Source of the DNA: Arsukibacterium tuosuense
Lineage (GTDB): Bacteria > Pseudomonadota > Gammaproteobacteria > Steroidobacterales > GCA-2729495
Reading direction: 5' to 3'
NCBI GenBank assembly: GCA_945872065.1
Contig: CAMBYH010000002.1
Coordinates: 1 to 64,000 of the forward strand
Length of the DNA: 64,000 nucleotides
The notes beneath the pieces are model-generated. The model did no database searches. It had not been told where the DNA came from and worked only from the letters and a program-made list of their open reading frames with translations. This document shows positions 37,940 through 61,310 of this stretch, in pieces (within the stretch, counting starts at the first letter, position 1; each line of letters begins with the position of its first letter). The position numbers and the translations under genes were made by a program.

Positions 37940-38851
37940 CTATTCCTCGACCAGATACTCGATGGCGAGGGGTGTGCCGCGCGCAGCGACTCTTCCCATG
38001 CTGATCACGCCACTGCCCGTCAGGGCCATACTGTCGCGACGCACGTAGAGTTCTTCGCCGGCATCCTGCTGGACAAACGTCCCGTTGGTACTCTCATCGA
38101 CAAGCACGAAGCGATTTCGTGCGGCGTCAATCCGCGCATGGACGCGGGAAATCAGGTTGCCCTTGATGACCACGTCATTCTCATCGGCCCGCCCCATCGT
38201 AATCAGCACCTTGCCGTTCTGACCCACTACCAGCTCCTCGCCGCGAAACCTCAGGCGGAGCCTGGTAGCCGGTGTCGGTGGGCGGGCAGAAGGATCAATT
38301 GAAGGCAACATGTTCGTCGCCTCTTCGGGCTGCCAGAGCACCTCAAAGACCGCCACTTCGTCGGACTGACCCTTGGGCGTGGCCACGTCGATCTGGCGAA
38401 CCAAGGCCTTCCACTGGGGAGTCAGCTGCTCAACCAGCGTACTGGTCGTCAGGATCTGGCCTGCCTTGGCCTGGGAGGTCATGCGGTTGGCCGTATGCAC
38501 CGCAGCGCCGAAGATGTCGCGATCCTCGGTCACGACGGGGCCGAAATGGCAACCGATCCGAATGGACACCTGAGAGTCGTCAGTCTCTATACGGATCGTA
38601 TTGGTGATCCGCTGCTGCATCTGATTGGCCGCATTCAGCGCATCATCGGCCGACGGGAAGGTAGACATTACTTCGTCCCCCATCGTCTTGATCACCGTGC
38701 CGCCGTAGTGCTCGGTCGCCTGCTTCATCACAGCCAGGCACTGCTGCACGGTCGCCCGGGCCCGGTCATCCCCCAATACCTCATAGAGGTGGGTACTTGC
38801 GACTACATCGGCAAACAGAATGGCGAGGGTTTTTTCAGAGCCCGCAGTCAC
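37940..38851 (-). CDS. Class III adenylate/guanylate cyclase with C-terminal FHA domain
   Basis: The 303-residue cytosolic protein has a class III cyclase homology domain (about 7-175) and a forkhead-associated domain (about 198-300; TMGRADENDVVI, ISRVHARI, STNGTFV). Metal aspartates are Asp15 (LFADVVAST) and Asp59 (KTMGDE); Lys55 fits adenine specificity. In the stretch AVHTANRMTS the transition-state asparagine of typical cyclases appears to be His119, while the following Arg123 is kept. It may therefore be slow or of altered specificity. Its genomic neighbours do not reveal a pathway. FHA implies response to a phosphothreonine partner. Confidence 0.85.
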   Translation of the reverse strand: MTAGSEKTLAILFADVVASTHLYEVLGDDRARATVQQCLAVMKQATEHYGGTVIKTMGDEVMSTFPSADDALNAANQMQQRITNTIRIETDDSQVSIRIGCHFGPVVTEDRDIFGAAVHTANRMTSQAKAGQILTTSTLVEQLTPQWKALVRQIDVATPKGQSDEVAVFEVLWQPEEATNMLPSIDPSARPPTPATRLRLRFRGEELVVGQNGKVLITMGRADENDVVIKGNLISRVHARIDAARNRFVLVDESTNGTFVQQDAGEELYVRRDSMALTGSGVISMGRVAARGTPLAIEYLVEE

Positions 38852-48946: not shown

Positions 48947-49669
48947 ATGCCTTTGAACGCACTCATTGAGGTCCGCGCGGCCCTGCACCGCCTGCTGCCG
49001 CCGGTAGTGACCAGTAGCGCCGGGCTGATTGCAGACCACTACCCGCCCCTGCACCCTGAAGAACTCGCCGCAACGGGACGGATGACGGCAGGGCGCCGGC
49101 AGGAGTTCGCTGCGGGTCGCGCTCAGGCGAGGAGAGTCCTGCAGGGGCTGGGACTGGCCTCTCCCGTCCTCCCGGTGGGCGACGACCGGGCCCCGCGCTG
49201 GCCCGATGGGTTCGTGGGCAGTATCTCCCATGCCGGAGAACTGGTGGTCGCGGTTGCCGCACCCTGCACGCTACTGGGTGCGCTGGGCGTGGATCTGGAA
49301 CCGGGCCTGCCCCTGGAAACGGACCTGCTGAAGCGCATCTGCCGGCCTGAGAAACTATCACGCCTGGCAGCGTCGACTGAACCCCTGCGCCAGGCCAAGC
49401 TGATCTTCAGTGCCAAGGAAAGTGTCTACAAGTGTGTTGCCCCGCAGTTGGGCATTTTCCTGGATTTTCCCGACCTGGAGATTTTCTTCGACCAGAAAGA
49501 GGAGCGATTCCACGCCCAGGGGCACGGGAAAGCAGCGGCACTGATTGGACCACACACGGTCACAGGAAGGTTCGCCGCTGCCGGTGGCTACTGGCTCACC
49601 ACCGCGTGGGCGAGTCAGGGCTTCCTGGCGCGACGGTCTATCCCGAAACGGCGCTCAACCCCCGAGTAG
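48947..49669 (+). CDS. 4'-phosphopantetheinyl transferase (EntD-like)
   Basis: Transfers the phosphopantetheine arm of CoA to carrier proteins. From the ATG at 48947 the product is 240 residues with the Sfp/EntD motifs ISHAGELVVAVAA, ALGVDLEPG with the metal acids, and FSAKESVYKCVAPQLG. The EntD class usually serves siderophore or specialised synthases; no carrier protein is in the window, so its target is unknown. Its last 55 bp overlap the convergent WecA-family gene. An ATG at 48896 is possible but lies close to gltX. Confidence 0.88.
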   Translation: MPLNALIEVRAALHRLLPPVVTSSAGLIADHYPPLHPEELAATGRMTAGRRQEFAAGRAQARRVLQGLGLASPVLPVGDDRAPRWPDGFVGSISHAGELVVAVAAPCTLLGALGVDLEPGLPLETDLLKRICRPEKLSRLAASTEPLRQAKLIFSAKESVYKCVAPQLGIFLDFPDLEIFFDQKEERFHAQGHGKAAALIGPHTVTGRFAAAGGYWLTTAWASQGFLARRSIPKRRSTPE

Positions 49670-50793
49670 CCGGTGGCCACGCCAGTTCTGCGGTCTATGC
49701 CGGCCTGTCGCCGAGAAATCGATGTGCGCAGGAAGCGCATGACTTTCCAGGAGTGGCTGATCATCCAGAAGTAGCCAATGCCCGTGAGCAGAAAACCCAG
49801 GGCCACGAAGAGTTCCGGGATCTCAAAGTAAATGCTGGCAAGACCTACAAACACGCCAAAACTGGCGAAGCCCGTCATGACGGCAACGGTGTCGTTGACA
49901 GAGAATCCCGCGAGGAGAAAGACGTGGTGCAGGTGCTCCCGGTCAGCGGCAAACGGCGAGCGACCCTTGAGAATCCGGCGGAGCATCATGGCGACCGCAT
50001 CAAAGATGGGGACCATCAGAAACCACAGGGCCGCCGATGGCCGCAGCGCCCGGGCTTCACCCTGGGACAGCGAGATCGCGTACCAGGTGAGGGCCAGACC
50101 CAGGAACATGCTGCCCGCATCGCCCATGAACACCGAGGCGCGCTCACGGCCAAAGATCCGCAGATTAAACAGCAGGAACCCGAGAATGGCCGCCCCCAGA
50201 ATCGGCAGCAATTCCATGTCGGCCGGGCTGCCCCAGATGGACGCGACCATGATCAGGCCAGAAAGCGAGGTCAGGGTGAGGCTGCCACTCAGGCCATCCA
50301 GTCCGTCACACATGTTGAGGGCATTGATGATGCCGAGCGTGGCGAAGACCGTGAAGGGCACTGCAACAACGCCCAGCTGAAGCAGATCCCCGGACGGTGT
50401 CATTGACCCGAGATCGGCGAGGACGATGCCGGCGCCAAAAATCATGAGCAGGGCGGCCAGGATCTGGGCAACGAAGCGGATGGCTGGCGACAATTCGAGG
50501 AAGTCATCGGTCACGCCTACGGCAACCAGCAGCAGGCCAGCCCCGAAGAAACTGTAGACCTCGCGACTACTCAGCCCATCGGGCCCGTTGTTGCTCAGAA
50601 AGAAGCCAAGGAGAAGTCCACCAAACATGGCCAGCCCCCCGACCAGCGGGGTCGGTACCTGATGGCTTTTGCGCTGGCTCGGGACATCGACCAGCCCCGA
50701 GTAAACCGCCAACGGGCGCAGGACGACGATCAGGAGAATCGTCGCAGCCAGGGCGACCAGTGGTGCCAGTTCGGGGGCCATAAGTGAAGTCAT
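49615..50793 (-). CDS. WecA/MraY-family undecaprenyl-phosphate sugar-1-phosphate transferase
   Basis: Polytopic enzyme that starts a lipid-linked glycan by moving a HexNAc-1-phosphate from a UDP-sugar to undecaprenyl phosphate. The 392-residue protein has about ten to eleven membrane helices, TPLVGGLAMF, the acidic GVTDDFLEL, NALNMCDGLDGLSG, FMGDAGSMFLGL and DREHLHHVFLLAGF. A basic tail ends ERRFGIDRRARKP. ATG at 50793 is chosen because earlier codons are outside the homologous part. The 3' end overlaps the transferase gene by 55 bp. Confidence 0.88.
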   Translation of the reverse strand: MTSLMAPELAPLVALAATILLIVVLRPLAVYSGLVDVPSQRKSHQVPTPLVGGLAMFGGLLLGFFLSNNGPDGLSSREVYSFFGAGLLLVAVGVTDDFLELSPAIRFVAQILAALLMIFGAGIVLADLGSMTPSGDLLQLGVVAVPFTVFATLGIINALNMCDGLDGLSGSLTLTSLSGLIMVASIWGSPADMELLPILGAAILGFLLFNLRIFGRERASVFMGDAGSMFLGLALTWYAISLSQGEARALRPSAALWFLMVPIFDAVAMMLRRILKGRSPFAADREHLHHVFLLAGFSVNDTVAVMTGFASFGVFVGLASIYFEIPELFVALGFLLTGIGYFWMISHSWKVMRFLRTSISRRQAGIDRRTGVATGYSGVERRFGIDRRARKP

Positions 50794-50919
50794 AACTACC
50801 GCAGTTTGCACACTAGGCTGGGGGTAAAGAGGCTGTCTGTGACTCGCCTCACACACAGAGGCGGGGAAGCAGTTCTGATCCGGCAAACTGCGACGGCCAG
50901 GCATCGCCGGAAGGGAAAA

Positions 50920-50935
50920 AGGCCAGTACAATGCC
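50920..50935 (+). promoter_or_regulatory. Candidate sigma-54 (-24/-12) site upstream of the export gene
   Basis: AGGCCAGTACAATGCC has GG at 50921-50922 and GC at 50933-50934 with the required 10 bp between them. It resembles TGGCACG-N4-TTGC in part. It is about 107 bp before the export-protein start and PrsR is encoded nearby, which raises interest, but the match is imperfect. Confidence 0.3.
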
Positions 50936-51041
50936 GTCCAAAGTCTATACCTTGGCCGTGACGTAGATAATCAATCTGTCTATTCAGTAATGTCCGGGCC
51001 AGCGCATGGCCTCAATCAGGGCCCTTGTCGGGAGTGACGAA

Positions 51042-51659
51042 ATGAGTAAAGGACTACGTGCTGCCGCCTGGCCCCTGCTGGTTGGGCTTCTGGGGCTTGC
51101 AGCGGCGGTTGAAGCCGCCAGTGATGCGCCGGTAACTGCTGCCGCGCCAGCCGCTGCCCCGGCAGCACTGGAGGCAGGTGGATACACCGTGAACCCAGGC
51201 GACATCCTGGAGATCAGCATATGGAATGAAAAGGACCTGCAGAAGCAGGCCATGGTCCGGCCGGATGGCTACTTCTCGTTTCCGCTCACCGGAGATATCC
51301 GGGCCGAAGGACGGAGCATCGAGGAGATCCGCCGTGAAGTGGGCAACCGGGTGGCTCGTTTCGTGCCTGAGCCCGTGGTCAGCGTGGCCGTAGTGGACCC
51401 GAAGGGCAGCAAGGTCTACGTGCTAGGCCAGGTCAACCGGCCTGGGGAATTCCCCATCAATCGTTTTGTGGACGTTGTTCAGGCGCTCAGCATGGCCGGT
51501 GGGACCACGCCGTTCGCGCAGCTCGATAGCATCAAGATTCTGCGCCGCGAGGGGACCACCCAGCAGGCGATCTCCTTTTCCTACAGCGACGTGGCGGCAG
51601 GCAGGCGCCTGCAGCAGAACATCGTGCTGAAGCCTGGCGATACTGTACTGGTGCCGTGA
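51042..51659 (+). CDS. Polysaccharide export protein, PEP-CTERM/EPS type
   Basis: Outer-membrane polysaccharide export protein of the Wza superfamily. The 205-residue product has a signal peptide (about 1-24), an Ala/Pro linker, the poly_export domain starting YTVNPGDILEISIWNEKDL and an SLBB region VYVLGQVNRPGEFPI. No lipobox cysteine is visible, unlike Wza, and it is shorter, as in the PEP-CTERM-associated family. ATG at 51042 has GGAG 7 nt upstream; the start at 51006 is less good. It overlaps the barrel gene by 4 nt. Confidence 0.88.
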   Translation: MSKGLRAAAWPLLVGLLGLAAAVEAASDAPVTAAAPAAAPAALEAGGYTVNPGDILEISIWNEKDLQKQAMVRPDGYFSFPLTGDIRAEGRSIEEIRREVGNRVARFVPEPVVSVAVVDPKGSKVYVLGQVNRPGEFPINRFVDVVQALSMAGGTTPFAQLDSIKILRREGTTQQAISFSYSDVAAGRRLQQNIVLKPGDTVLVP

Positions 51660-53026
51660 GCCGCACCGGGGTTGTATCGCGGCCCGGTCCGTCGGCTCTT
51701 ATGCCCCGGGCGGCCATTTCTTGCGCATTCCTGCTGGTCCTCCTGCCGGATTCTCGGGCCTTGGCCTACTGGCAGATCACCCCTCAGGCTGATGCGGGGA
51801 TCACCTATCAGACGAACCCACGGTACCTAACCGATGCGGAGGAAGCGGTAAATCCGGATGGCGGGGAAGACACGCTGGGCACCTTTGTGGATGTGCGCAC
51901 CGAGGGCGTCTGGAAAACCCCCAGCACCACGGTGTCTCTGGTACCGCGGCTCCGACGAACGGACTACCTGAAGGCCAACGATGACCTCAACAACGACGAC
52001 AGCTACCTCACTTTCCTGGCAACGTACACGGGGAGCCGCGGCAGTGTCGGCATGAACGTGCTTTACGCGGATACTTCGATTGTTACCAGCGATTTCCAGA
52101 CGGCGACGACGGACGATCCCGGCGCTCCACCACCAGTCAATGGCACCACCGGCAGGTACAGCAATGCCATGCAGAAAACCTGGACTTACCAGCCGTCCGT
52201 GACCTTTCAGCTTGCGACCCGCAACTCTTTTAGCATTACAGGGGACCTGGCAGACGTCACCTACAACGAGGATGGACTGCAGTTTGACGAAGCGGTGCGC
52301 TACGTTGATTACAGCAATTCCTCGGTCGAACTCGCGCTCCGCCACTACCTGAATCCAAAAAGTTTCTTCGTCATCGCCCTGAACGGCGGCAATTTTGTAA
52401 CTGAAAATCCAGACACCAGCATCCAGAACTCCACGGATTCCTTCAGTATCACGGCGGCCTACGATTACACCTTCTCCCAGACTCTGACCGGCAGCGTGAC
52501 TGCGGGCATAAGCAGAAGTGCCATTGATGTTTCAGGAATAGGGTTTGGTCTGGATCCCCTCACCGGCTCGCCCTGTACTGCCGACCGCACCTGCTCCATC
52601 AGCAACGAGGCACGGAACTTCGTTGGCTATGCCCAGTTGCGGAAACGGTCAGAAGACACAACTTTTGACGTCTCGCTCAGCCGGGCCATTGCCCCGGGCT
52701 CGAATGGCACTCAATCAGTCCAGGACTCTCTTCGGCTCGATATCAATCAGACGCTGACCCGCAAGCTGAGTGTCGGAATAGGAGGCGTCTATAGCAAGGA
52801 CTCAGCGCTGAGCAAGAATGCCACGCAGTTCGGAGACTTACGCCAGGACTCTGATTACTTGACCATCGACTCCCGCATCTCGTGGACCCTGACTGACACA
52901 CTGCAGTTCTACGGCAGCTACTCGTACATTTCCAGCACGACGGACGCGATCAACGGGAACGTTGACCAAAACAACAATCGCCTGAACTTTGGTGTCCTGT
53001 ACCGGGGTGTGGGCTTCCGGAGATAG
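51656..53026 (+). CDS. Outer-membrane beta-barrel protein of the EPS (PEP-CTERM-associated) system
   Basis: The 456-residue protein has a signal-like N-terminus (hydrophobic stretch about residues 18-40) and then continuous amphipathic strands with aromatic girdles (YWQITPQADAGITYQTNPRY, QFYGSYSYISSTT, LNFGVLYRGVGF). This resembles the outer-membrane proteins that accompany PEP-CTERM export genes and probably forms the polymer channel or a surface barrel. GTG start overlaps the export gene (GTGA). It ends 13 bp before algD, so the three form an operon. Confidence 0.75.
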   Translation: MSRTGVVSRPGPSALMPRAAISCAFLLVLLPDSRALAYWQITPQADAGITYQTNPRYLTDAEEAVNPDGGEDTLGTFVDVRTEGVWKTPSTTVSLVPRLRRTDYLKANDDLNNDDSYLTFLATYTGSRGSVGMNVLYADTSIVTSDFQTATTDDPGAPPPVNGTTGRYSNAMQKTWTYQPSVTFQLATRNSFSITGDLADVTYNEDGLQFDEAVRYVDYSNSSVELALRHYLNPKSFFVIALNGGNFVTENPDTSIQNSTDSFSITAAYDYTFSQTLTGSVTAGISRSAIDVSGIGFGLDPLTGSPCTADRTCSISNEARNFVGYAQLRKRSEDTTFDVSLSRAIAPGSNGTQSVQDSLRLDINQTLTRKLSVGIGGVYSKDSALSKNATQFGDLRQDSDYLTIDSRISWTLTDTLQFYGSYSYISSTTDAINGNVDQNNNRLNFGVLYRGVGFRR

Positions 53027-53039
53027 CAGAAGAGAATCA

Positions 53040-54359
53040 ATGACACCTACCCGTATAAGTATCTTTGGCCTCGGCTACGTGGGAGCCGTTTCGGCTGCCT
53101 GTCTGGTTAGGGAGGGCCATACGGTCATCGGCGTCGATCCCAATCAGGCCAAAGTCGACCTGATCAACAGCGGCCAGTCCCCCATCGTTGAGGATGGACT
53201 CGACGTACTGATCCGAGAAGGCGTCTCGGCAGGTCGCCTGTCGGCTGTCAGCGATGCGGCGGCAGCGGTAGCGGGTTCCGAGATCTCCTTTGTCTGTGTC
53301 GGGACACCCTCTGCCGCCAACGGGAGTCTCGACCTGCGCTATGTGCAGGCCGTATGCAGCGAGATCGGTACAGTGCTGAAGGGACTGAAACGCCCTCACA
53401 CCGTCGTTATTCGCAGCACGATCCTGCCAGGGACCATGCAGACCATCGTCCTGCCTGCTCTCCGTCAGGCGTCTGGCCTGGAGCCCGGCAAGGATTTCGC
53501 CGTTCTGAATAATCCGGAATTTCTCAGGGAAGGGACGGCCGTCAACGACTACTTCAACCCCCCGAAGACCGTTATCGGGGCCCTGCTTCCGGCGAATGCA
53601 CTGCCGCTGGAAAGGATCTATGCCGACTTGCCTGGCCCCAAGATCACCACCAGCCTGGAGACGGCTGAACTCGTGAAGTACGTGGATAACGTCTGGCACG
53701 CCCTAAAAGTAGGCTTCGCGAATGAAATCGGGGCCATCTGCAAGCAGCTAGAGATCGACAGCCACCCGGTCATGGACATTTTCTGCCAGGACCGGAAGCT
53801 GAACATCTCCCCTACCTACCTGAAACCGGGATTTGCGTTCGGCGGCTCCTGCCTGCCGAAGGACGTCCGGGCACTGACCTACAAGTCGCGGCAGCTCGAC
53901 CTGAAGCTCCCCATCATTGGCTCGATCCTGGAGAGCAATGAACTGCACCTCCAGCGAGCCATGGATATGGTGACGCGGCATGGCAGACGCCCGCTGGGTG
54001 TTCTCGGACTGAGCTTCAAGCCCGGCACCGACGACCTGCGGGAAAGTCCCATGGTGGAACTGGTCGAGCGACTGCTCGGCAAAGGCTATGACCTGCGCAT
54101 TTACGACCGTAACGTCAGCCTGGCAAGCCTGATGGGGGCCAACCGGGAGTTCATCTTCCGGCATATCCCCCATATTGCAAAGCTGCTGGTCCCAACCCTG
54201 GACGAGGTAACCCAGCACGCCGACGTCCTTGTCGTCAGCCACAACTCGCCCGAGTTTGAGGGCGCGATCCGGCAGATTCGCCCCGGACAGATTGTGGTGG
54301 ACTACGCCCGGGTATCCGGTGGCCGGTCAACTGCCGAATACGACGGCATTGCCTGGTAA
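53040..54359 (+). CDS. algD: GDP-mannose 6-dehydrogenase (AlgD-like)
   Basis: Four-electron oxidation of GDP-mannose to GDP-mannuronate. The 439-residue product begins with the NAD-binding ISIFGLGYVGAVSAACL and has NNPEFLREGTA, ANEIGAICK, the catalytic-Cys block FAFGGSCLPKDVRALTYKS and LGLSFKPGTDDLRESPMVEL. These segments and the overall length agree better with AlgD than with UDP-glucose dehydrogenase. It implies mannuronic acid in the polymer. The nucleotide-sugar preference should be confirmed by phylogeny. It ends 1 nt from the convergent tRNA-Val. Confidence 0.88.
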   Translation: MTPTRISIFGLGYVGAVSAACLVREGHTVIGVDPNQAKVDLINSGQSPIVEDGLDVLIREGVSAGRLSAVSDAAAAVAGSEISFVCVGTPSAANGSLDLRYVQAVCSEIGTVLKGLKRPHTVVIRSTILPGTMQTIVLPALRQASGLEPGKDFAVLNNPEFLREGTAVNDYFNPPKTVIGALLPANALPLERIYADLPGPKITTSLETAELVKYVDNVWHALKVGFANEIGAICKQLEIDSHPVMDIFCQDRKLNISPTYLKPGFAFGGSCLPKDVRALTYKSRQLDLKLPIIGSILESNELHLQRAMDMVTRHGRRPLGVLGLSFKPGTDDLRESPMVELVERLLGKGYDLRIYDRNVSLASLMGANREFIFRHIPHIAKLLVPTLDEVTQHADVLVVSHNSPEFEGAIRQIRPGQIVVDYARVSGGRSTAEYDGIAW

Positions 54360-54360
54360 A

Positions 54361-54435
54361 TGGTGGGCGATGAGTGGATTGAACACTCGACCTCTGCTGT
54401 GTGAAAGCAGCGCTCTACCACTGAGCTAATCGCCC
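54361..54435 (-). tRNA. tRNA-Val (anticodon CAC)
   Basis: 75 nt gene on the minus strand from GGGCGATTAGCTCAGTGG to an encoded CCA, with anticodon loop TTCACAC (CAC at 34-36) and a T-arm ending GTTCAATCC. It is tail to tail with algD, one base from its stop codon. TTGCCA (54469-54474) and TATATC (54447-54452), 16 bp apart, form a promoter just upstream. Confidence 0.95.
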
Positions 54436-54545: not shown

Positions 54546-55850
54546 ATGTACGAGGAATTCTTCAAGCTAAGCTGCCGCCCGTTCGACCTGGCGCCGGACC
54601 CGAAATTCATCTACATGACAGACCAGCACGCCCGTGCGGTCGCGAACGTGCGGTTCGCCCTGATGAATCACGATAGTTTTGTGATCATCTCTGGCGAGAT
54701 CGGGATCGGCAAAACCACCATCCTCAACACCGTCATGGAGGAGCTGGGTCCTGGCTACGTCACAGCCAAACTCGTCCACACTACGCTTACCCACATCGAG
54801 CTCCTGCAAGCCCTGATGTCCGAGTTTGGCATGCCAAACTACACGAAAAAGAAGGTCTTGCTGCTCGACTCCTTGCGCAACTTTTTCCTTGAACAAAACA
54901 AGAAGGGCAATCACGTCGTCATCATCGTCGACGAGGCCCAGAACCTCAGCTCCTCGGCACTGGAGGAGCTACGACTGCTCTCTTGCATCGATACGAGTGA
55001 CCGCCGGATCGTCTCAATCATCCTGACGGGTCAGCCATCACTCGATGATCTTCTTGACGCGCCAGGCCTTACCCAACTCCGACAGCGGGCCCGGTTGCGA
55101 CAGCGGCTTGATGCCATGGTGGAGTCAGAGACCCACGAGTACATCAGGCATCGACTCGCGATCGCCGGCGGCGACGCGAACGACATATTCGAGACAGAGA
55201 CTCTCAGCGAGATTCACCGGCTGACTTCCGGAATTCCACGGTTGATCAATACTCTGTGCGATACCGCCCTGACTGCCTGCATGGTCGAGAACCGGCCGCG
55301 AGTGACCCTCGAAGTCATCGACAATGTGGTTCACGAATTGCGCTGGCAGTGGTTCGAGGAACAGGCACCCCGTGCCCAGTCAGCCCGCTCAGCCACGGAA
55401 CCCTCGGCAGACGGGACCGTTAGTGTGATGGCCTACCGCTCCGGCCAACTCGTCGACCAGGTCGAAGCACACGGATTTCCCTTTGTCATCGGACGCGGCA
55501 ACGCCAACGACCTCGTGATCATCGACAAAGAGGTTAGCAGGCGCCATGCACTGATCGACTGCATAGGCGGCATCTATGTCGTAGAGGACCTGAACAGCAA
55601 GAATGGGATACTCGTCAACCAGAAGCGACGAGCCCGGGCACTACTGCGCTCCGGCGACATCATCTCCCTGGGCGAGGTAGATGTAGTGTTCTATGTGGAG
55701 CACAGGCGTTCGGGCAAGCCCCTCACTCGCGCCGCGGTGGAAGACAAGGTGCATGGGGAATTGGTTGACGATACCAGCAAACAGGTCGTGCAGACTATCG
55801 AAAGCGACACTGCCGACAGGGACACACAGCAGCTCTCTCGCCTGCCCTGA
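54546..55850 (+). CDS. GspA/ExeA-like AAA ATPase with C-terminal FHA domain (EPS-associated)
   Basis: The 434-residue protein has an AAA ATPase domain with Walker A GEIGIGKTT (50-58), Walker B VVIIVDEAQNLS (124-135) and sensor-type TGQPSL, like the ATPase found in PEP-CTERM exopolysaccharide loci. After a linker it adds an FHA domain (about 293-386: VIGRGNANDLVI, VSRRHALI, LNSKNGILVN). The canonical locus ATPase lacks this, so the tail should bind phosphothreonine peptides. It may drive or regulate secretion in response to a kinase. No Ser/Thr kinase is in the window. Confidence 0.85.
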   Translation: MYEEFFKLSCRPFDLAPDPKFIYMTDQHARAVANVRFALMNHDSFVIISGEIGIGKTTILNTVMEELGPGYVTAKLVHTTLTHIELLQALMSEFGMPNYTKKKVLLLDSLRNFFLEQNKKGNHVVIIVDEAQNLSSSALEELRLLSCIDTSDRRIVSIILTGQPSLDDLLDAPGLTQLRQRARLRQRLDAMVESETHEYIRHRLAIAGGDANDIFETETLSEIHRLTSGIPRLINTLCDTALTACMVENRPRVTLEVIDNVVHELRWQWFEEQAPRAQSARSATEPSADGTVSVMAYRSGQLVDQVEAHGFPFVIGRGNANDLVIIDKEVSRRHALIDCIGGIYVVEDLNSKNGILVNQKRRARALLRSGDIISLGEVDVVFYVEHRRSGKPLTRAAVEDKVHGELVDDTSKQVVQTIESDTADRDTQQLSRLP

Positions 55851-55967: not shown

Positions 55968-57389
55968 CTAGCGCGGCGACCCGGACATGCTGGTTCCCCT
56001 CCCCCACACCACAACTTCAAGTGTCTGGAGCAGGATCAGGAGATCAGTGATGATGTTCGTGTTCTTGATGTAGTACAGATCGTAAGTCAGCTTCTCACGC
56101 GCATCATCCATCGACGCACCGTAGGGAAAGTTAAGCTGGGCCCAGCCAGTCAGCCCTGGCCGGACCCCATGCCTGTAGAGGTACAGCGACTCCTGCCGCG
56201 CCAGTACCTCGACAAATTCTGGCCTCTCCGGTCGCGGGCCCACCACACTCATATCTCCCCGGATTACGTTGAACAACTGGGGCAACTCATCGACACGAAA
56301 GCGCCTGATCAGGCGCCCGATCCGCGTGATCCGGTCGTCGCCCGCTGAAGAGAAACGCGGCCCCGTACCGACTTCGGCATCGACCCGCATGCTCCTGAAC
56401 TTCAGGAGGTTGAACACCCTGCCATGGAGCCCAACACGACGCTGGCGGTAGAGGACTGGCGCCGAAGGGCCGTCGCCGATTCGGATAGCGATCAGCGTCA
56501 CCACCAGAATCGGCGACATCAGGAGCAGCAAGACCGTGCTGAAAACCAGGTCGAAAAGACGCTTCATCCAGCGGTAGAGGATGTCTGTCTGACTGCTCTT
56601 CTCGTACAACAGCCAGCTCGGCTTCAGGATATCGAGATCCAGGCGTTCGGTTTCCCTCTCGAGGAAGTCTATAACGTCGGTGACAGACACGCCCCGCTGC
56701 TTCTGATTAAGGAGAAAATCCAGGGGCAGCATGCCCCGGCGGTCATCGAGCGCCACCACGATCTCGTCCAGTCTCCGGATTGCCCGCGCTTCTTCGGGCG
56801 TCAGCAGTGGCTCGATATCCAGCTTGTTGGCCACTTGCCGTTCTTCAGCGGATGCCACGATAAAGCCCACGACGTCGAAACTGCGCCGGTCCGCTCGCCG
56901 CCGCAGCCTGTAGATCCTGGAAGCTGCCTCTCCACCTCCCACCACCAGTACCCGCCGCTTGATGGGATTGAAGTCGAGAATGCGCAGCATGCCCAGCCGC
57001 ACACCGAAGACCAGAGTGGCCGCGATAAACAGGGCCAGCGCAAGCGCGCCGCGGCCAAAGCTGACGTCGGGCACGAGATAAAACAGGATAATGCTGATCC
57101 CGCCACCGACAACTACACCCAGAATGGCGCGGACTGCCGCTTCAGAGGGCGTGGGCCGTTGGCGTGGCCGGTACAGTCCCATGCTCAGCAGTCCCACCAC
57201 GAGACTGCCGGTGAACACCACGGCTCGCAGGGGCAGGGCGCCGACCGACTCAGCCACAAGGGACCAGTCGAAGGAAAAGCGCAGGCCGACCGCCAGAACA
57301 AAGGCGACTATTCCGACGCCGAGATCCACGAGCAACAGTGCGAGGACCGTCGTGGGCAGGCGACGCAGGGCTGCACTACCCCATTTCAT
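55968..57389 (-). CDS. Exopolysaccharide polyprenyl glycosylphosphotransferase (PEP-CTERM EpsB-like)
   Basis: Transfers a sugar-1-phosphate to undecaprenyl phosphate to start repeat-unit assembly. The 473-residue product has four or five membrane helices, a nucleotide-binding-like CoA_binding domain (about 135-215), a further helix (about 275-300) and the bacterial sugar transferase domain: KRLFDLVFSTVLLLLMSPIL, YRQRRVGLHG, KFRSMR and VDELPQLFNVIRGDMSVVGPRPERPEF. The ATG at 57389 precedes the first helix; the earlier start at 57410 adds seven residues. Confidence 0.9.
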   Translation of the reverse strand: MKWGSAALRRLPTTVLALLLVDLGVGIVAFVLAVGLRFSFDWSLVAESVGALPLRAVVFTGSLVVGLLSMGLYRPRQRPTPSEAAVRAILGVVVGGGISIILFYLVPDVSFGRGALALALFIAATLVFGVRLGMLRILDFNPIKRRVLVVGGGEAASRIYRLRRRADRRSFDVVGFIVASAEERQVANKLDIEPLLTPEEARAIRRLDEIVVALDDRRGMLPLDFLLNQKQRGVSVTDVIDFLERETERLDLDILKPSWLLYEKSSQTDILYRWMKRLFDLVFSTVLLLLMSPILVVTLIAIRIGDGPSAPVLYRQRRVGLHGRVFNLLKFRSMRVDAEVGTGPRFSSAGDDRITRIGRLIRRFRVDELPQLFNVIRGDMSVVGPRPERPEFVEVLARQESLYLYRHGVRPGLTGWAQLNFPYGASMDDAREKLTYDLYYIKNTNIITDLLILLQTLEVVVWGRGTSMSGSPR

Positions 57390-57839
57390 GGCAAAACGTC
57401 CTCGTCGCACGGTAACTCCCCTGCACGGTGCCGCAATGGCCAGGGAGGTGGTTAATGTGCATCATTTGCGGGTCATCTTAGTGATCTGAGCACGCCCATA
57501 CCAGTAGCGTTTCCCGGATTACGTCACCCGCGGGGCCAAGGTTGCTCATTGCCACCAGAGGCATGATTGGCTGAGGTGGAACTGTCCGCCGGTTTGGCTG
57601 ATACCGTGAACGGGTCGGTAGCGGCCTGCAGGGCCGGAGACAGAGTGGTACCGGGTACCTTTCCAACGCCGCAGGATGTGGCTATGTTGAAGGGGTGAAA
57701 GTTGTCCTCTTGTCCGGTGGGCTGGGTCCAGGTGAGGCCAGGCTGGCCTCAGACCGGCAGCCAGGCTTCTGGTGCTCGCCGCCAGCACCAGCCCGACGCG
57801 CGCTGATCTCGTTCTTGCCTCTTACCTGACTCCCTGATC
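57390..57839. other. Divergent intergenic region between EPS genes
   Basis: No gene is convincing in this 450 bp gap between divergent genes. It holds an 8-base inverted repeat TGAGGCCA / TGGCCTCA (57733-57740, 57744-57751) with a 3 nt spacer, a small palindrome GGTACCGGGTACC (57647-57659) and a weak sigma-54-like pair, GG 57745-57746 and GC 57757-57758, at spacing 10. Small minus-strand frames here lack coding features. Confidence 0.5.
57733..57758 (+). promoter_or_regulatory. Inverted repeat and candidate sigma-54 site upstream of the flippase gene
   Basis: TGGCCTCAGACCGGCA has GG and GC 10 bp apart about 82 bp before the flippase start, and its first half is one arm of an 8-base inverted repeat. 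Both could be chance or an operator; the consensus match is low. Confidence 0.25.
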
Positions 57840-59342
57840 ATGGCCAGCCCCGCGGATTCCCCGCCACGGGACAACCAGTCCCTGGACCAGTCGGCCCTCT
57901 CGGGGGTCGCCTGGGCGAGTGCCGCCAAGTTATCCACTCAGGTCCTCGCCTGGGCCAGCACAATCATCGTGGCGCGCATTCTGAATCCTTCAGACTTCGG
58001 GCTGATGACCATGGCGACGGTGTTTCTGGGCGTGGTCATGATGCTGAGCGAATTCGGGGTGGGCAGCGCCGTGGTAACGCTGCGGGAGCTGGCGCCCGAG
58101 AAGCTCTATCAGCTCAACTCCATCAGCCTGCTGCTTGGCCTTGGCGGCACACTGGTAACGGTCCTCATGGCCTACCCCCTGGGACTCTTCTTTCGGGCCC
58201 CTGAACTGCCGCCAGTCCTGATGGTTGTGGGCCTCACCTTTCTCATTTCCTCATTCCAGATCGTCCCTGCGGCAATGCTGCGGCGCGAACTCCGGTTTCG
58301 CACCCTCGCCCTGATCGACATCGGCCGGGGGCTGCTTATGCCCACAGTGACTCTCATTGGCGCCCTGCTGGGCCTTCGCTACTGGGCACTGGCACTTGGC
58401 ACCGTAGCTGGCGCTGTGGCCACGATGGTCTTCACGCTGTACTGCCGCCGGATCGCGTTTGCCCGGCCTCGCCTCACGGGCCTCCGGGAGGTGCTGCACT
58501 TCAGCCGGGATGTCCTGGTTAGCCGCCTGGCGTACATCATCTACCAGGACGGTGATTTTGCCGTGGCAGGCCGCAGGCTCGGCCAGGCCGCCGTGGGCGA
58601 TTACTCCCTGGCCTGGACGCTCGCCACCAGCCCAATCGAGAAACTCACGTTGGTGCTGTCGGACGTCACGCCAGGACTGTTCAGCGCGGTACAGAACGAT
58701 CGGCCCGCTCTCAGACGCTATTTTCTGAATCTCTCGGAGATTCTCTGCATCGCGACCTTTCCAGCGGCGGTCGGGCTGGCGCTGGTGAGCATTGACCTGG
58801 TGGCTGTGGTTCTGGGCCCGAAGTGGGTCGGCGCCGGGCCTCCGCTGGCACTTCTGGCCCTTTACGCCGGTGCCCGCTCCGTCACTGGCCTGTTCGGCCA
58901 CCTGTTCATTGCGACCCGTGAAACGCGCTTCATGATGTGGATATCCATCACTGGTGCGGTTTGTCTGCTCACGGGATTTATCGTGGGCAGCAACTGGGGA
59001 ACAGCAGGCATCGCGGCTGCATGGCTGTTGATTCACCCATCGATTTCAGTGTGTGCGTTTACGCGCGTCCGACGGGTCCTGGATCTGTCTGGGATTCAGT
59101 ACCTGAAGGCACTGCGCCTGGGCCTCGATGGGTCCGCGGCCATGGCTCTCGCGGTCCTGGCTTTCCAGACTTTTCTGGCTTCAACCTGGTCGCCTGGCCT
59201 GCGCCTGATCGCCTCCATGCTGGTGGGTGCCGCGGTCTTCGGCCTCACCAGCTGGTTGTTGCATCGGGCGCGGCTGCGGGAGATTCTCGACTGGCTTACG
59301 CGGGTGCGACGCGGTGGTACCCCGGCAGCTGAGCCGGCCTGA
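57840..59342 (+). CDS. Wzx-like lipopolysaccharide/exopolysaccharide flippase
   Basis: The 500-residue MOP-superfamily transporter has about 13-14 transmembrane helices, starting GVAWASAAKLSTQVLAWASTIIVARILNPSDFG, the characteristic N-terminal block of polysaccharide flippases. It should move undecaprenyl-linked repeat units to the periplasm for this locus. It is divergent from the glycosylphosphotransferase and convergent with the amidotransferase gene. Confidence 0.9.
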   Translation: MASPADSPPRDNQSLDQSALSGVAWASAAKLSTQVLAWASTIIVARILNPSDFGLMTMATVFLGVVMMLSEFGVGSAVVTLRELAPEKLYQLNSISLLLGLGGTLVTVLMAYPLGLFFRAPELPPVLMVVGLTFLISSFQIVPAAMLRRELRFRTLALIDIGRGLLMPTVTLIGALLGLRYWALALGTVAGAVATMVFTLYCRRIAFARPRLTGLREVLHFSRDVLVSRLAYIIYQDGDFAVAGRRLGQAAVGDYSLAWTLATSPIEKLTLVLSDVTPGLFSAVQNDRPALRRYFLNLSEILCIATFPAAVGLALVSIDLVAVVLGPKWVGAGPPLALLALYAGARSVTGLFGHLFIATRETRFMMWISITGAVCLLTGFIVGSNWGTAGIAAAWLLIHPSISVCAFTRVRRVLDLSGIQYLKALRLGLDGSAAMALAVLAFQTFLASTWSPGLRLIASMLVGAAVFGLTSWLLHRARLREILDWLTRVRRGGTPAAEPA

Positions 59343-59375: not shown

Positions 59376-61310
59376 TCAGCGGGCAGCGATGGTCTGCAGA
59401 TTCTCTGCGAGCGCTTCGGGCGATTCACGGTCGAGATGGATGCGACACCAGATCTCCAGGGTTGTCAGCGCGACGAGATGGTCGGTGTGATCGGCGCGGT
59501 GAGCCCTGTGGTCTGCCACCAGTCGCTGAACGACCGCCGGATCCATCAGTCCCCGACGCCGAAGGGTTTCCGGCCCCAGAAGGTCGGTCATGACCCCGGA
59601 CAATTCGTTGTTGAACCAGGCCCCAAAAGGCGCGCCAAAGCCGCGCTTCGGACGATGCAGTGTCTCCTCGGGAAGGATACCCGTCAGCGCCTTCTTCAGA
59701 ATGTAACGGGTCTCCCGGCCGCGAACCCGCAGTTCTGAGGGCAGCCGGGCAGCGAGGTCCACGAGTCGCTCGTCGAGCAGGGGCACCCTGCACTCCAGTG
59801 ACTGCCCCATGCTGACCTTGTCGGTCAAAAGCAGAAGATCGTCCGGCAACTGGGTAGCCAGATCCGCGGCCATCATCTGGTCAAGGTCGCTGTGGCCCAG
59901 ATAACGGCCAAGTACCTCTGTAAGCGCCGAGGGGCCAGGTCCGCGACTACCCGGGAGCAGCGCAGAAAGGTCTGTTGCGCTGAAGACCTCCATCACCTCG
60001 TGATAACGGGACGCACTGTCCTTGTCGGCCACCAGCGCCACCTTGCGGGCCGCCCTGAGGAGGTTAAGCAACCGGGTGTGCCGGGCTACGGGAAGCATAC
60101 CGAGTAGCGGGTTGAGCAACCCGCGCCGCAGCGGGCCGGGGATCTTGCGAAACGTGGCAGCCAGATGGGGCAACTGATAGCGGTCATAGCCCCCGAATAA
60201 CTCGTCGCCACCAACACCTGACAGAATCACCTTTACGTCCCGGCGGGCGAACTCGGATACCAGGCTGCTGGTAATCAGCGCCGAGTCTGCGGTGGGCTCA
60301 TCCATGTGCCAGACGAGTCCCGGCAGGAGCTCTATGACCTGCGGTTTGACGTCAATTTCGTGATGTTCGGTGCCGAAACGCGCGGCAATCCGCCGTGCGT
60401 AGTCCAGTTCGTTGTAGATGGCAGCGCCCGTCGAGCCAGAATAGCCAATCGCGTAGGTCTTGACGGGACTGGAACTCAGCCGACTCATTGCAGCGACGAT
60501 GGTGCTGGAATCGATACCTCCACTGAGAAACGCGCCAATCGGCACATCACTGACCATCTGGGCCTCGATGCTGTCGTTCAGGGCCGTTCGGATCTCATCA
60601 ATCCAGTCACTCTCGCTGGGCCCATGATCCGGTCGGATCGCGAACTGCCAATAGGTGCGCTCCTCAGTACGGCCACCCTCAATCACGAGCATGCTGCCCG
60701 GCATCAGCTTGCGGATTCCGGCAAACATGCTGAAGGGAGCCGGGACATAGCCCAGAGTCAGATACTGACGAAGGGCGTTCTCATCAAGCCGGGTCGCATA
60801 GTCTGGCCTGCCCACAATGGCCTTGCTTTCCGAAGCGAAGGCGATGCTGCGGCCAACTCGGGCGTAGTAGACAGGCTTGATGCCCAGGCGGTCGCGACCG
60901 ATCAGCAAGCGCTGGCGCCGCCGGTCCCAGAGGGCAAAACCGAACATTCCGCGCAGGTGGGTCACGAAATCGTCACCGTGCTCCTCGTAGAGGTGCACCA
61001 GCACCTCAACATCGCTTCCCGTGCTGAAGCGGTGCCCGGCTGACAGAAGCTTCTGCCGCAGCTCCCGGAAGTTGTAAATCTCCCCGTTACAGACCACGAC
61101 GACGGAGCCATCTTCGTTGGCGATAGGCTGGTGCCCCGTCGCGACGTCGATGATCGAGAGGCGCCGGAGCCCAAGGGCGGCTCGCTCATCCATAAAAAGG
61201 CCATCATCATCGGGGCCACGGTGAATAATCGCCGCCCCCATGGCCCTGATGACAGACTCCTGCGGGCGGCCATCGCCCTCCAGAATCAGTTCGCCGTAGA
61301 TGCCGCACAT
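59376..61310 (-). CDS. Asparagine synthase-type glutamine amidotransferase (EPS-associated)
   Basis: The 644-residue protein has the class II glutaminase domain with nucleophile Cys2 (MCGIYGEL) and RRLSIIDVATGHQPI, NEDGSVVVVCNGEIYN, then the synthetase domain with the PP-loop LSGGIDSSTIVAAM. Its overall size and place fit the exosortase-A-type amidotransferase 1 found in EPS loci rather than housekeeping AsnB. It may amidate a uronic acid of the polymer, consistent with the adjacent AlgD-type enzyme (inference). It is 22 bp after the GT4 gene. Confidence 0.88.
   Translation of the reverse strand: MCGIYGELILEGDGRPQESVIRAMGAAIIHRGPDDDGLFMDERAALGLRRLSIIDVATGHQPIANEDGSVVVVCNGEIYNFRELRQKLLSAGHRFSTGSDVEVLVHLYEEHGDDFVTHLRGMFGFALWDRRRQRLLIGRDRLGIKPVYYARVGRSIAFASESKAIVGRPDYATRLDENALRQYLTLGYVPAPFSMFAGIRKLMPGSMLVIEGGRTEERTYWQFAIRPDHGPSESDWIDEIRTALNDSIEAQMVSDVPIGAFLSGGIDSSTIVAAMSRLSSSPVKTYAIGYSGSTGAAIYNELDYARRIAARFGTEHHEIDVKPQVIELLPGLVWHMDEPTADSALITSSLVSEFARRDVKVILSGVGGDELFGGYDRYQLPHLAATFRKIPGPLRRGLLNPLLGMLPVARHTRLLNLLRAARKVALVADKDSASRYHEVMEVFSATDLSALLPGSRGPGPSALTEVLGRYLGHSDLDQMMAADLATQLPDDLLLLTDKVSMGQSLECRVPLLDERLVDLAARLPSELRVRGRETRYILKKALTGILPEETLHRPKRGFGAPFGAWFNNELSGVMTDLLGPETLRRRGLMDPAVVQRLVADHRAHRADHTDHLVALTTLEIWCRIHLDRESPEALAENLQTIAAR

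Follow-up and report, generated by a model that had tools for sequence, protein, structure and literature searches.

Does the ATPase gene that lies among exopolysaccharide (EPS) genes in the window (the whole stretch of DNA analyzed, 64 000 nucleotides) encode a reader of phosphothreonine, and which EPS machinery would such a protein serve? The regulation of XrtA/PEP-CTERM EPS and the role of its ATPase are poorly known, and a bacterial family with a phosphothreonine-reader ATPase would provide a direct handle on them: the FHA domain could serve as bait to identify the kinase together with the target, and the control of export could be probed with point mutations.

An intact FHA domain follows the ATPase module

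The reading frame at 54546–55850 (+) codes for an ATPase-FHA fusion of 434 amino acids with the following parts.

54546..55850 (+): ATPase-FHA fusion gene, 434 aa, stop codon included (Pfam, NCBIfam)
54546..55343 (+): ExeA/GspA-type AAA ATPase module, residues 1–266 (Pfam; Walker A/B)
55344..55436 (+): variable linker, residues 267–297 (conservation 0.49, 20 family members)
55437..55697 (+): FHA domain, residues 298–384, Pfam core 314–376 (Pfam, signature residues, conservation 0.82)
55698..55847 (+): unconserved tail, residues 385–434, with acidic-Thr motifs (conservation 0.26)

Our Pfam search places AAA_22 at residues 42–170 (E = 9e-24), with Walker A (GEIGIGKT) at 50–57 and Walker B (VIIVDEAQ) at 125–132. 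It also returns FHA at residues 314–376 (E = 6.2e-18; 65.4 bits, above the gathering cut-off of 20.7), a complete match covering model positions 2–67 of 67, and no peptidoglycan-binding C-terminus of the ExeA/GspA type at an E-value of 0.01 or better. The FHA signature is complete (IGRG at 315–318, VSRRH at 330–334, NSKNG at 350–354), and in an alignment of 42 homologous fusions G316, R317, S331, H334, S351, N353 and G354 are invariant while R332 is retained in 40. The initial annotation had proposed an intact FHA domain behind the ATPase, and the full-length match together with the invariant phosphate-binding residues confirms it; domain searches of the protein and its homologues find FHA present, with no loss of these residues in the 42 fusions. 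Among NCBIfam models the best match is TIGR03015, the XrtA/PEP-CTERM ATPase (E = 1.6e-77), but the score of 260.6 bits lies below the cut-off of 324.5; the OdhI score, 34.7 of 200 bits, is also below its cut-off.

As judged from sequence, the FHA region has the pattern expected of a working domain, because its mean column conservation across 20 members of the family (here and below, that of the window's genome) equals that of the ATPase module (0.82 for both) while the linker (0.49) and the tail (0.26) drift. An AlphaFold model of the fusion, computed from a three-sequence alignment, is poor (mean pLDDT 55.6, pTM 0.34). In sequence alignments the window's FHA matches domains of solved structure from Rv1747 (the best match), FhaA, EmbR, GarA and OdhI, and the Arg/Ser/Arg/Asn positions are preserved in those to Rv1747, EmbR and FhaA. 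The Yop-YscD_cpl model is matched as well (E = 2.3e-12), as would suit a structural or phospho-independent docking module, comparable to the FHA-like domains of YscD type and with no phosphothreonine switch. We consider such a module very unlikely, as the FHA model scores higher (65.4 versus 47.5 bits) and none of the 42 members departs from the Arg/Ser/Asn phosphate contacts.

The fusion gene lies in a conserved EPS neighborhood

The genes surrounding the fusion in the window include the following.

49615..50931 (−): WecA-type glycosyl-1-phosphate transferase, conserved neighbor (Pfam, NCBIfam)
51006..51659 (+): Wza-type polysaccharide export protein, TIGR03027-like, below cut-off (Pfam, NCBIfam)
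51656..53026 (+): protein predicted by eye to resemble an outer-membrane barrel (matches no family; encoded in 14 of the 15 family loci)
52989..54359 (+): UDP-glucose/GDP-mannose dehydrogenase (Pfam, NCBIfam)
54361..54435 (−): tRNA-Val(CAC), antisense, lying between the dehydrogenase gene and ATPase-FHA (seen in 14 of the 15 family loci)
55968..57410 (−): XrtA/PEP-CTERM initiating glycosyltransferase, TIGR03013, above cut-off (NCBIfam)
57840..59342 (+): Wzx-type (MOP) flippase (Pfam, NCBIfam)
59376..61310 (−): XrtA-type amidotransferase/asparagine synthase, TIGR03108-like, below cut-off (Pfam, NCBIfam)

We inspected 15 family loci at length, one of them from the near-identical G007. The barrel gene is found in 14 of them and EpsB2 in 12, with the export protein and wecA usually present and the sugar dehydrogenase sometimes. 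Because the antisense tRNA-Val(CAC) directly precedes the ATPase-FHA gene in all but one of these loci, the gene is probably transcribed alone, as a unit of its own. Among the scanned homologues that sit in other contexts, none has a tRNA-Val nearby. Some members of genera g2 and g4 have a second tRNA-Val, with anticodon AAC, directly after the ATPase-FHA gene. Another fusion in the window (37940–38851, −), 16 kb from the ATPase-FHA gene, joins an FHA domain to a cyclase domain of the class III adenylate/guanylate type, and in a locus of family f77 (L093) the ATPase-FHA gene is immediately followed by a reading frame for a cyclase-FHA protein.

The fusion belongs to a separate ATPase lineage

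Searching 60 genomes of the order, we found fusions at 63–100% identity in 22 genomes of the family, which argues that the joining of the two domains is not due to chance. The fusion is thus no peculiarity of the window but is conserved through much of the family. More distant fusions, at about 28–45% identity, were seen in genus g9 of the same family, and many further families of the order have them as well. Among 299 genomes drawn from the phylum, no other listed match reaches the FHA region, so the fusion is concentrated in the order and in some other families of the class. A plasmid search returned no record that covers 80% of the query.

In a tree of 61 ATPase-module sequences, the fusion lineage (38 rows) is separated with support of 100/99 from the TIGR03015 proteins, from the long ExeA-like proteins and from shorter ATPases of the type found on contig C78. 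The TIGR03015 proteins form one clade (100/99), the window protein falls on the opposite side of the tree, and the long ExeA-like proteins (about 560–600 aa) make up another branch. This tree, along with the TIGR03015 score of 260.6 against 324.5, leads us to reject the view that the window protein is the usual PEP-CTERM ATPase with an extra FHA domain, as had been claimed; its lineage is also usually found outside EPS loci. The accompanying claim, that the usual PEP-CTERM EPS ATPase has no phosphopeptide module, held up: of 274 genomes of the class, 54 encode TIGR03015 proteins above cut-off, and FHA is present in none of the 30 above-cut-off members inspected, whose C-termini are mostly coiled-coil-like as judged by eye. 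The C78-type ATPases were considered as canonical XrtA ATPases and rejected once true TIGR03015 members had entered the tree.

Elsewhere in the order, the fusion lineage is usually represented by a solitary gene near purK, purE or tldD, without EPS genes. Four XrtA-operon ATPases of other families (L100, L101, L103 and L104) fall inside the lineage and are without FHA, having lost it or never had it. FHA is the rule in the lineage that holds the window protein. Most simply, the FHA would have arrived with the lineage, and the family would have recruited ATPase-FHA into its EPS loci and kept the FHA, although the tree is compatible with either direction of change within the lineage. Among the variants, a 1069-aa version (L062, 5307–8516) has about 700 residues between ATPase and FHA, with a second ATPase-FHA gene near it on the same contig. 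In family f16 (L063, 352–11046), an EPS-type set of genes for export, Wzz, BY-kinase and a non-FHA ATPase precedes the gene of a divergent ATPase-FHA that is greatly extended at its C-terminus, and this locus therefore holds ATPases of both kinds.

The fusion accompanies an XrtA core without an adjacent ATPase

The XrtA core lies beyond the window on the same contig, at about 82–91 kb and 28 kb from the ATPase-FHA gene, and includes TIGR03006, TIGR03016, TIGR03018-like, TIGR03007, TIGR03027 and TIGR03108 genes. Its barrel gene adjoins the deacetylase, with no ATPase in between, and the TIGR03016 barrel has no detectable relation to the barrel-like protein at 51656–53026. A family-wide search detected the XrtA deacetylase in 18 genomes. 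The fusion is present in all 18, in comparison with 5 of the 19 genomes without the deacetylase (Fisher 2.4e-6, uncorrected for ancestry), and where both genes are on one contig they lie 6–33 kb apart in 12 of 13 genomes, the exception being G017 with about 1.2 Mb between them. None of the 18 genomes has an ATPase gene beside the XrtA deacetylase, a position that is occupied by an ATPase in families f5, f9 and f16 of the same order. In the window's family, ATPase-FHA appears to replace the ordinary XrtA-EPS ATPase.

Two other assignments of the protein bear on this replacement. It may be a general effector of kinase pathways that has a separate function in the envelope and whose gene occupies a conserved tRNA-Val site to which EPS genes came as well. 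The gene is solitary and outside EPS contexts in no fewer than 11 loci, from families f2, f3, f4, f7, f10, f11 and f12, which is consistent with such a role, as are its probable separate transcription next to the antisense tRNA-Val and the presence of the fusion in five family genomes that lack the XrtA deacetylase, three of them less than 80% complete. We regard a general effector as unlikely, given how closely the fusion tracks the deacetylase within the family (18/18 versus 5/19) and the XrtA core that has no ATPase beside its deacetylase.

The other assignment is that ATPase-FHA serves the local second export set (51006–53026) only, with the XrtA core using a C78-type ATPase in trans. The main rival supplier is indeed encoded on contig C78, where a shorter ATPase without FHA, which could serve the XrtA core, lies next to a BY-kinase and a Wzz gene; in addition, the export protein and the outer-membrane barrel are the closest conserved partners of ATPase-FHA. 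However, the C78 ATPase is itself under the TIGR03015 cut-off (278.9 of 324.5 bits), and in genomes G005 and G032, which possess the XrtA deacetylase, the search of the order returned no ATPases beyond the fusion and one long ExeA-like protein, so that the C78 type is apparently missing. A purely local function is, in our assessment, decidedly unlikely.

Hanks kinases and a candidate phosphosite in the tail

A Ser/Thr kinase had been expected to co-occur with the fusion. Every one of the 47 fusion-bearing genomes checked has at least three Hanks kinases, so this expectation holds at the level of the genome; it fails at the level of the locus, as none of the kinases lies in the window's EPS locus. 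The window's genome has five clear Hanks kinases, none of them on the 99.6-kb contig that carries the EPS genes. Fewer than three were counted in 16 of 33 fusion-less genomes (Fisher 4e-8, uncorrected for ancestry). These counts fit kinase control of ATPase-FHA. On another contig, C5 (G000; L072, 5077–9179), a CHASE2-Hanks kinase, a PP2C phosphatase and an FHA protein are encoded side by side; in the last of these, the acidic-Thr motif FASTMVIER lies C-terminal to the FHA domain. In family f90 (L094, 2558–4183; L096, 36–1595), a VWA-FHA gene comes after the ATPase-FHA gene, and the VWA-FHA tail repeats acidic-Thr motifs (LLEDATIIN, EEDAPTVFM and DNDQTIFLK).

The tail of ATPase-FHA, which is fast-evolving across the family, holds DDTS around Thr410 and QTIESD around Thr417, and related motifs recur in the tails of family members. 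The pattern [DE][DEPS]TG is found in 10 of 20 family tails, where shuffled sequences would give 0.45, and in tails of other lineages it does not exceed chance; we take these shuffle values as a lead only, the patterns having been selected after the tails were viewed. In GarA and OdhI, an FHA domain with a nearby Thr motif is able to act as an internal switch, and the acidic-Thr motif of the tail is a candidate phosphosite for a switch of this kind.

A proposed phosphothreonine-switched assembly ATPase

Established work on ExeA/GspA ATPases points to a part in building or docking the export machinery of the envelope. Our tentative preference, which we hold to be quite possible while still short of probable, is that ATPase-FHA is the phosphothreonine-switched assembly ATPase of the XrtA-linked EPS pathway in the window's family. 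The ExeA-type module would have this assembly function, and the FHA domain linked to it would act in the cytoplasm. A Hanks kinase of the cell would phosphorylate a Thr of a partner, which may be an EPS component, a kinase or the acidic-Thr tail of ATPase-FHA itself; once bound by the FHA, this partner would switch the ATPase on or off, or position it. Phosphopeptide binding, the kinase and ligand involved, the direction of control and the part of the ATPase in EPS assembly are putative elements of this scheme, from which we infer that the FHA gates export.

The evidence for the EPS-assembly reading includes the complete FHA with its invariant residues, the linkage to XrtA/EPS genes, the missing ATPase by the deacetylase and the presence of Hanks kinases. 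It further includes the conserved block with export protein, outer-membrane barrel, EpsB2 and wecA in family loci, and the adjacency of the CHASE2-kinase, PP2C phosphatase and FHA protein genes in the genome. On the opposite side are an EPS contig with no kinase, a lineage that is elsewhere solitary and without EPS genes, and the non-FHA ATPase of C78 as a possible supplier to the XrtA core. Direct gating of export-machine assembly by a Hanks kinase, with a phosphothreonine-reading ATPase having replaced the standard coiled-coil XrtA/PEP-CTERM ATPase and possibly with the phosphorylated acidic-Thr tail occupying the FHA, seems to us somewhat unlikely. Since the ATPase and FHA pairing is conserved and appears to stand in for the ordinary enzyme, protein kinases may control slime export in this family.

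Comparison with known systems

ATPase-FHA resembles the TIGR03015 ATPase of XrtA/PEP-CTERM loci in an ATPase module that is homologous over its whole length and, in the window's family, in the kind of locus it occupies; occurrence with an XrtA EPS core, as expected of TIGR03015 members, is also seen for the fusion. It differs in its score below cut-off, its separate lineage and its FHA domain, which the inspected TIGR03015 members lack, most of them ending in coiled-coil-like tails. With ExeA/GspA of type II secretion it has the ATPase superfamily in common, but it carries no Pfam peptidoglycan-binding C-terminus, and the long ExeA-like proteins are on another branch. GarA and OdhI, unlike the fusion, have no ATPase, and the corresponding tail switch in the window protein is hypothetical.

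FhaA has an FHA related in sequence to that of the window protein but is not known to be an ExeA-type ATPase. In the mycobacterial FhaA-MviN(MurJ)/PknB system, this FHA protein acts on a peptidoglycan export step under a Hanks kinase, and the flippase itself is phosphorylated (PMC6180346). Rv1747 similarly places FHA domains on an ATP-driven exporter, an ABC transporter rather than an ExeA-type AAA ATPase, and is phosphorylated through PknF according to a passage in PMC6213207 that cites Molle 2004. The pairing had been put forward as undescribed, and in the literature searched, with partial coverage, no account came up of an EPS-locus ATPase of the ExeA/GspA type that bears an FHA domain. Mycobacteria already provide examples of Hanks kinases that control the export of envelope polymers through FHA domains, whereas an FHA domain on the ExeA-type ATPase of an EPS locus is apparently new.
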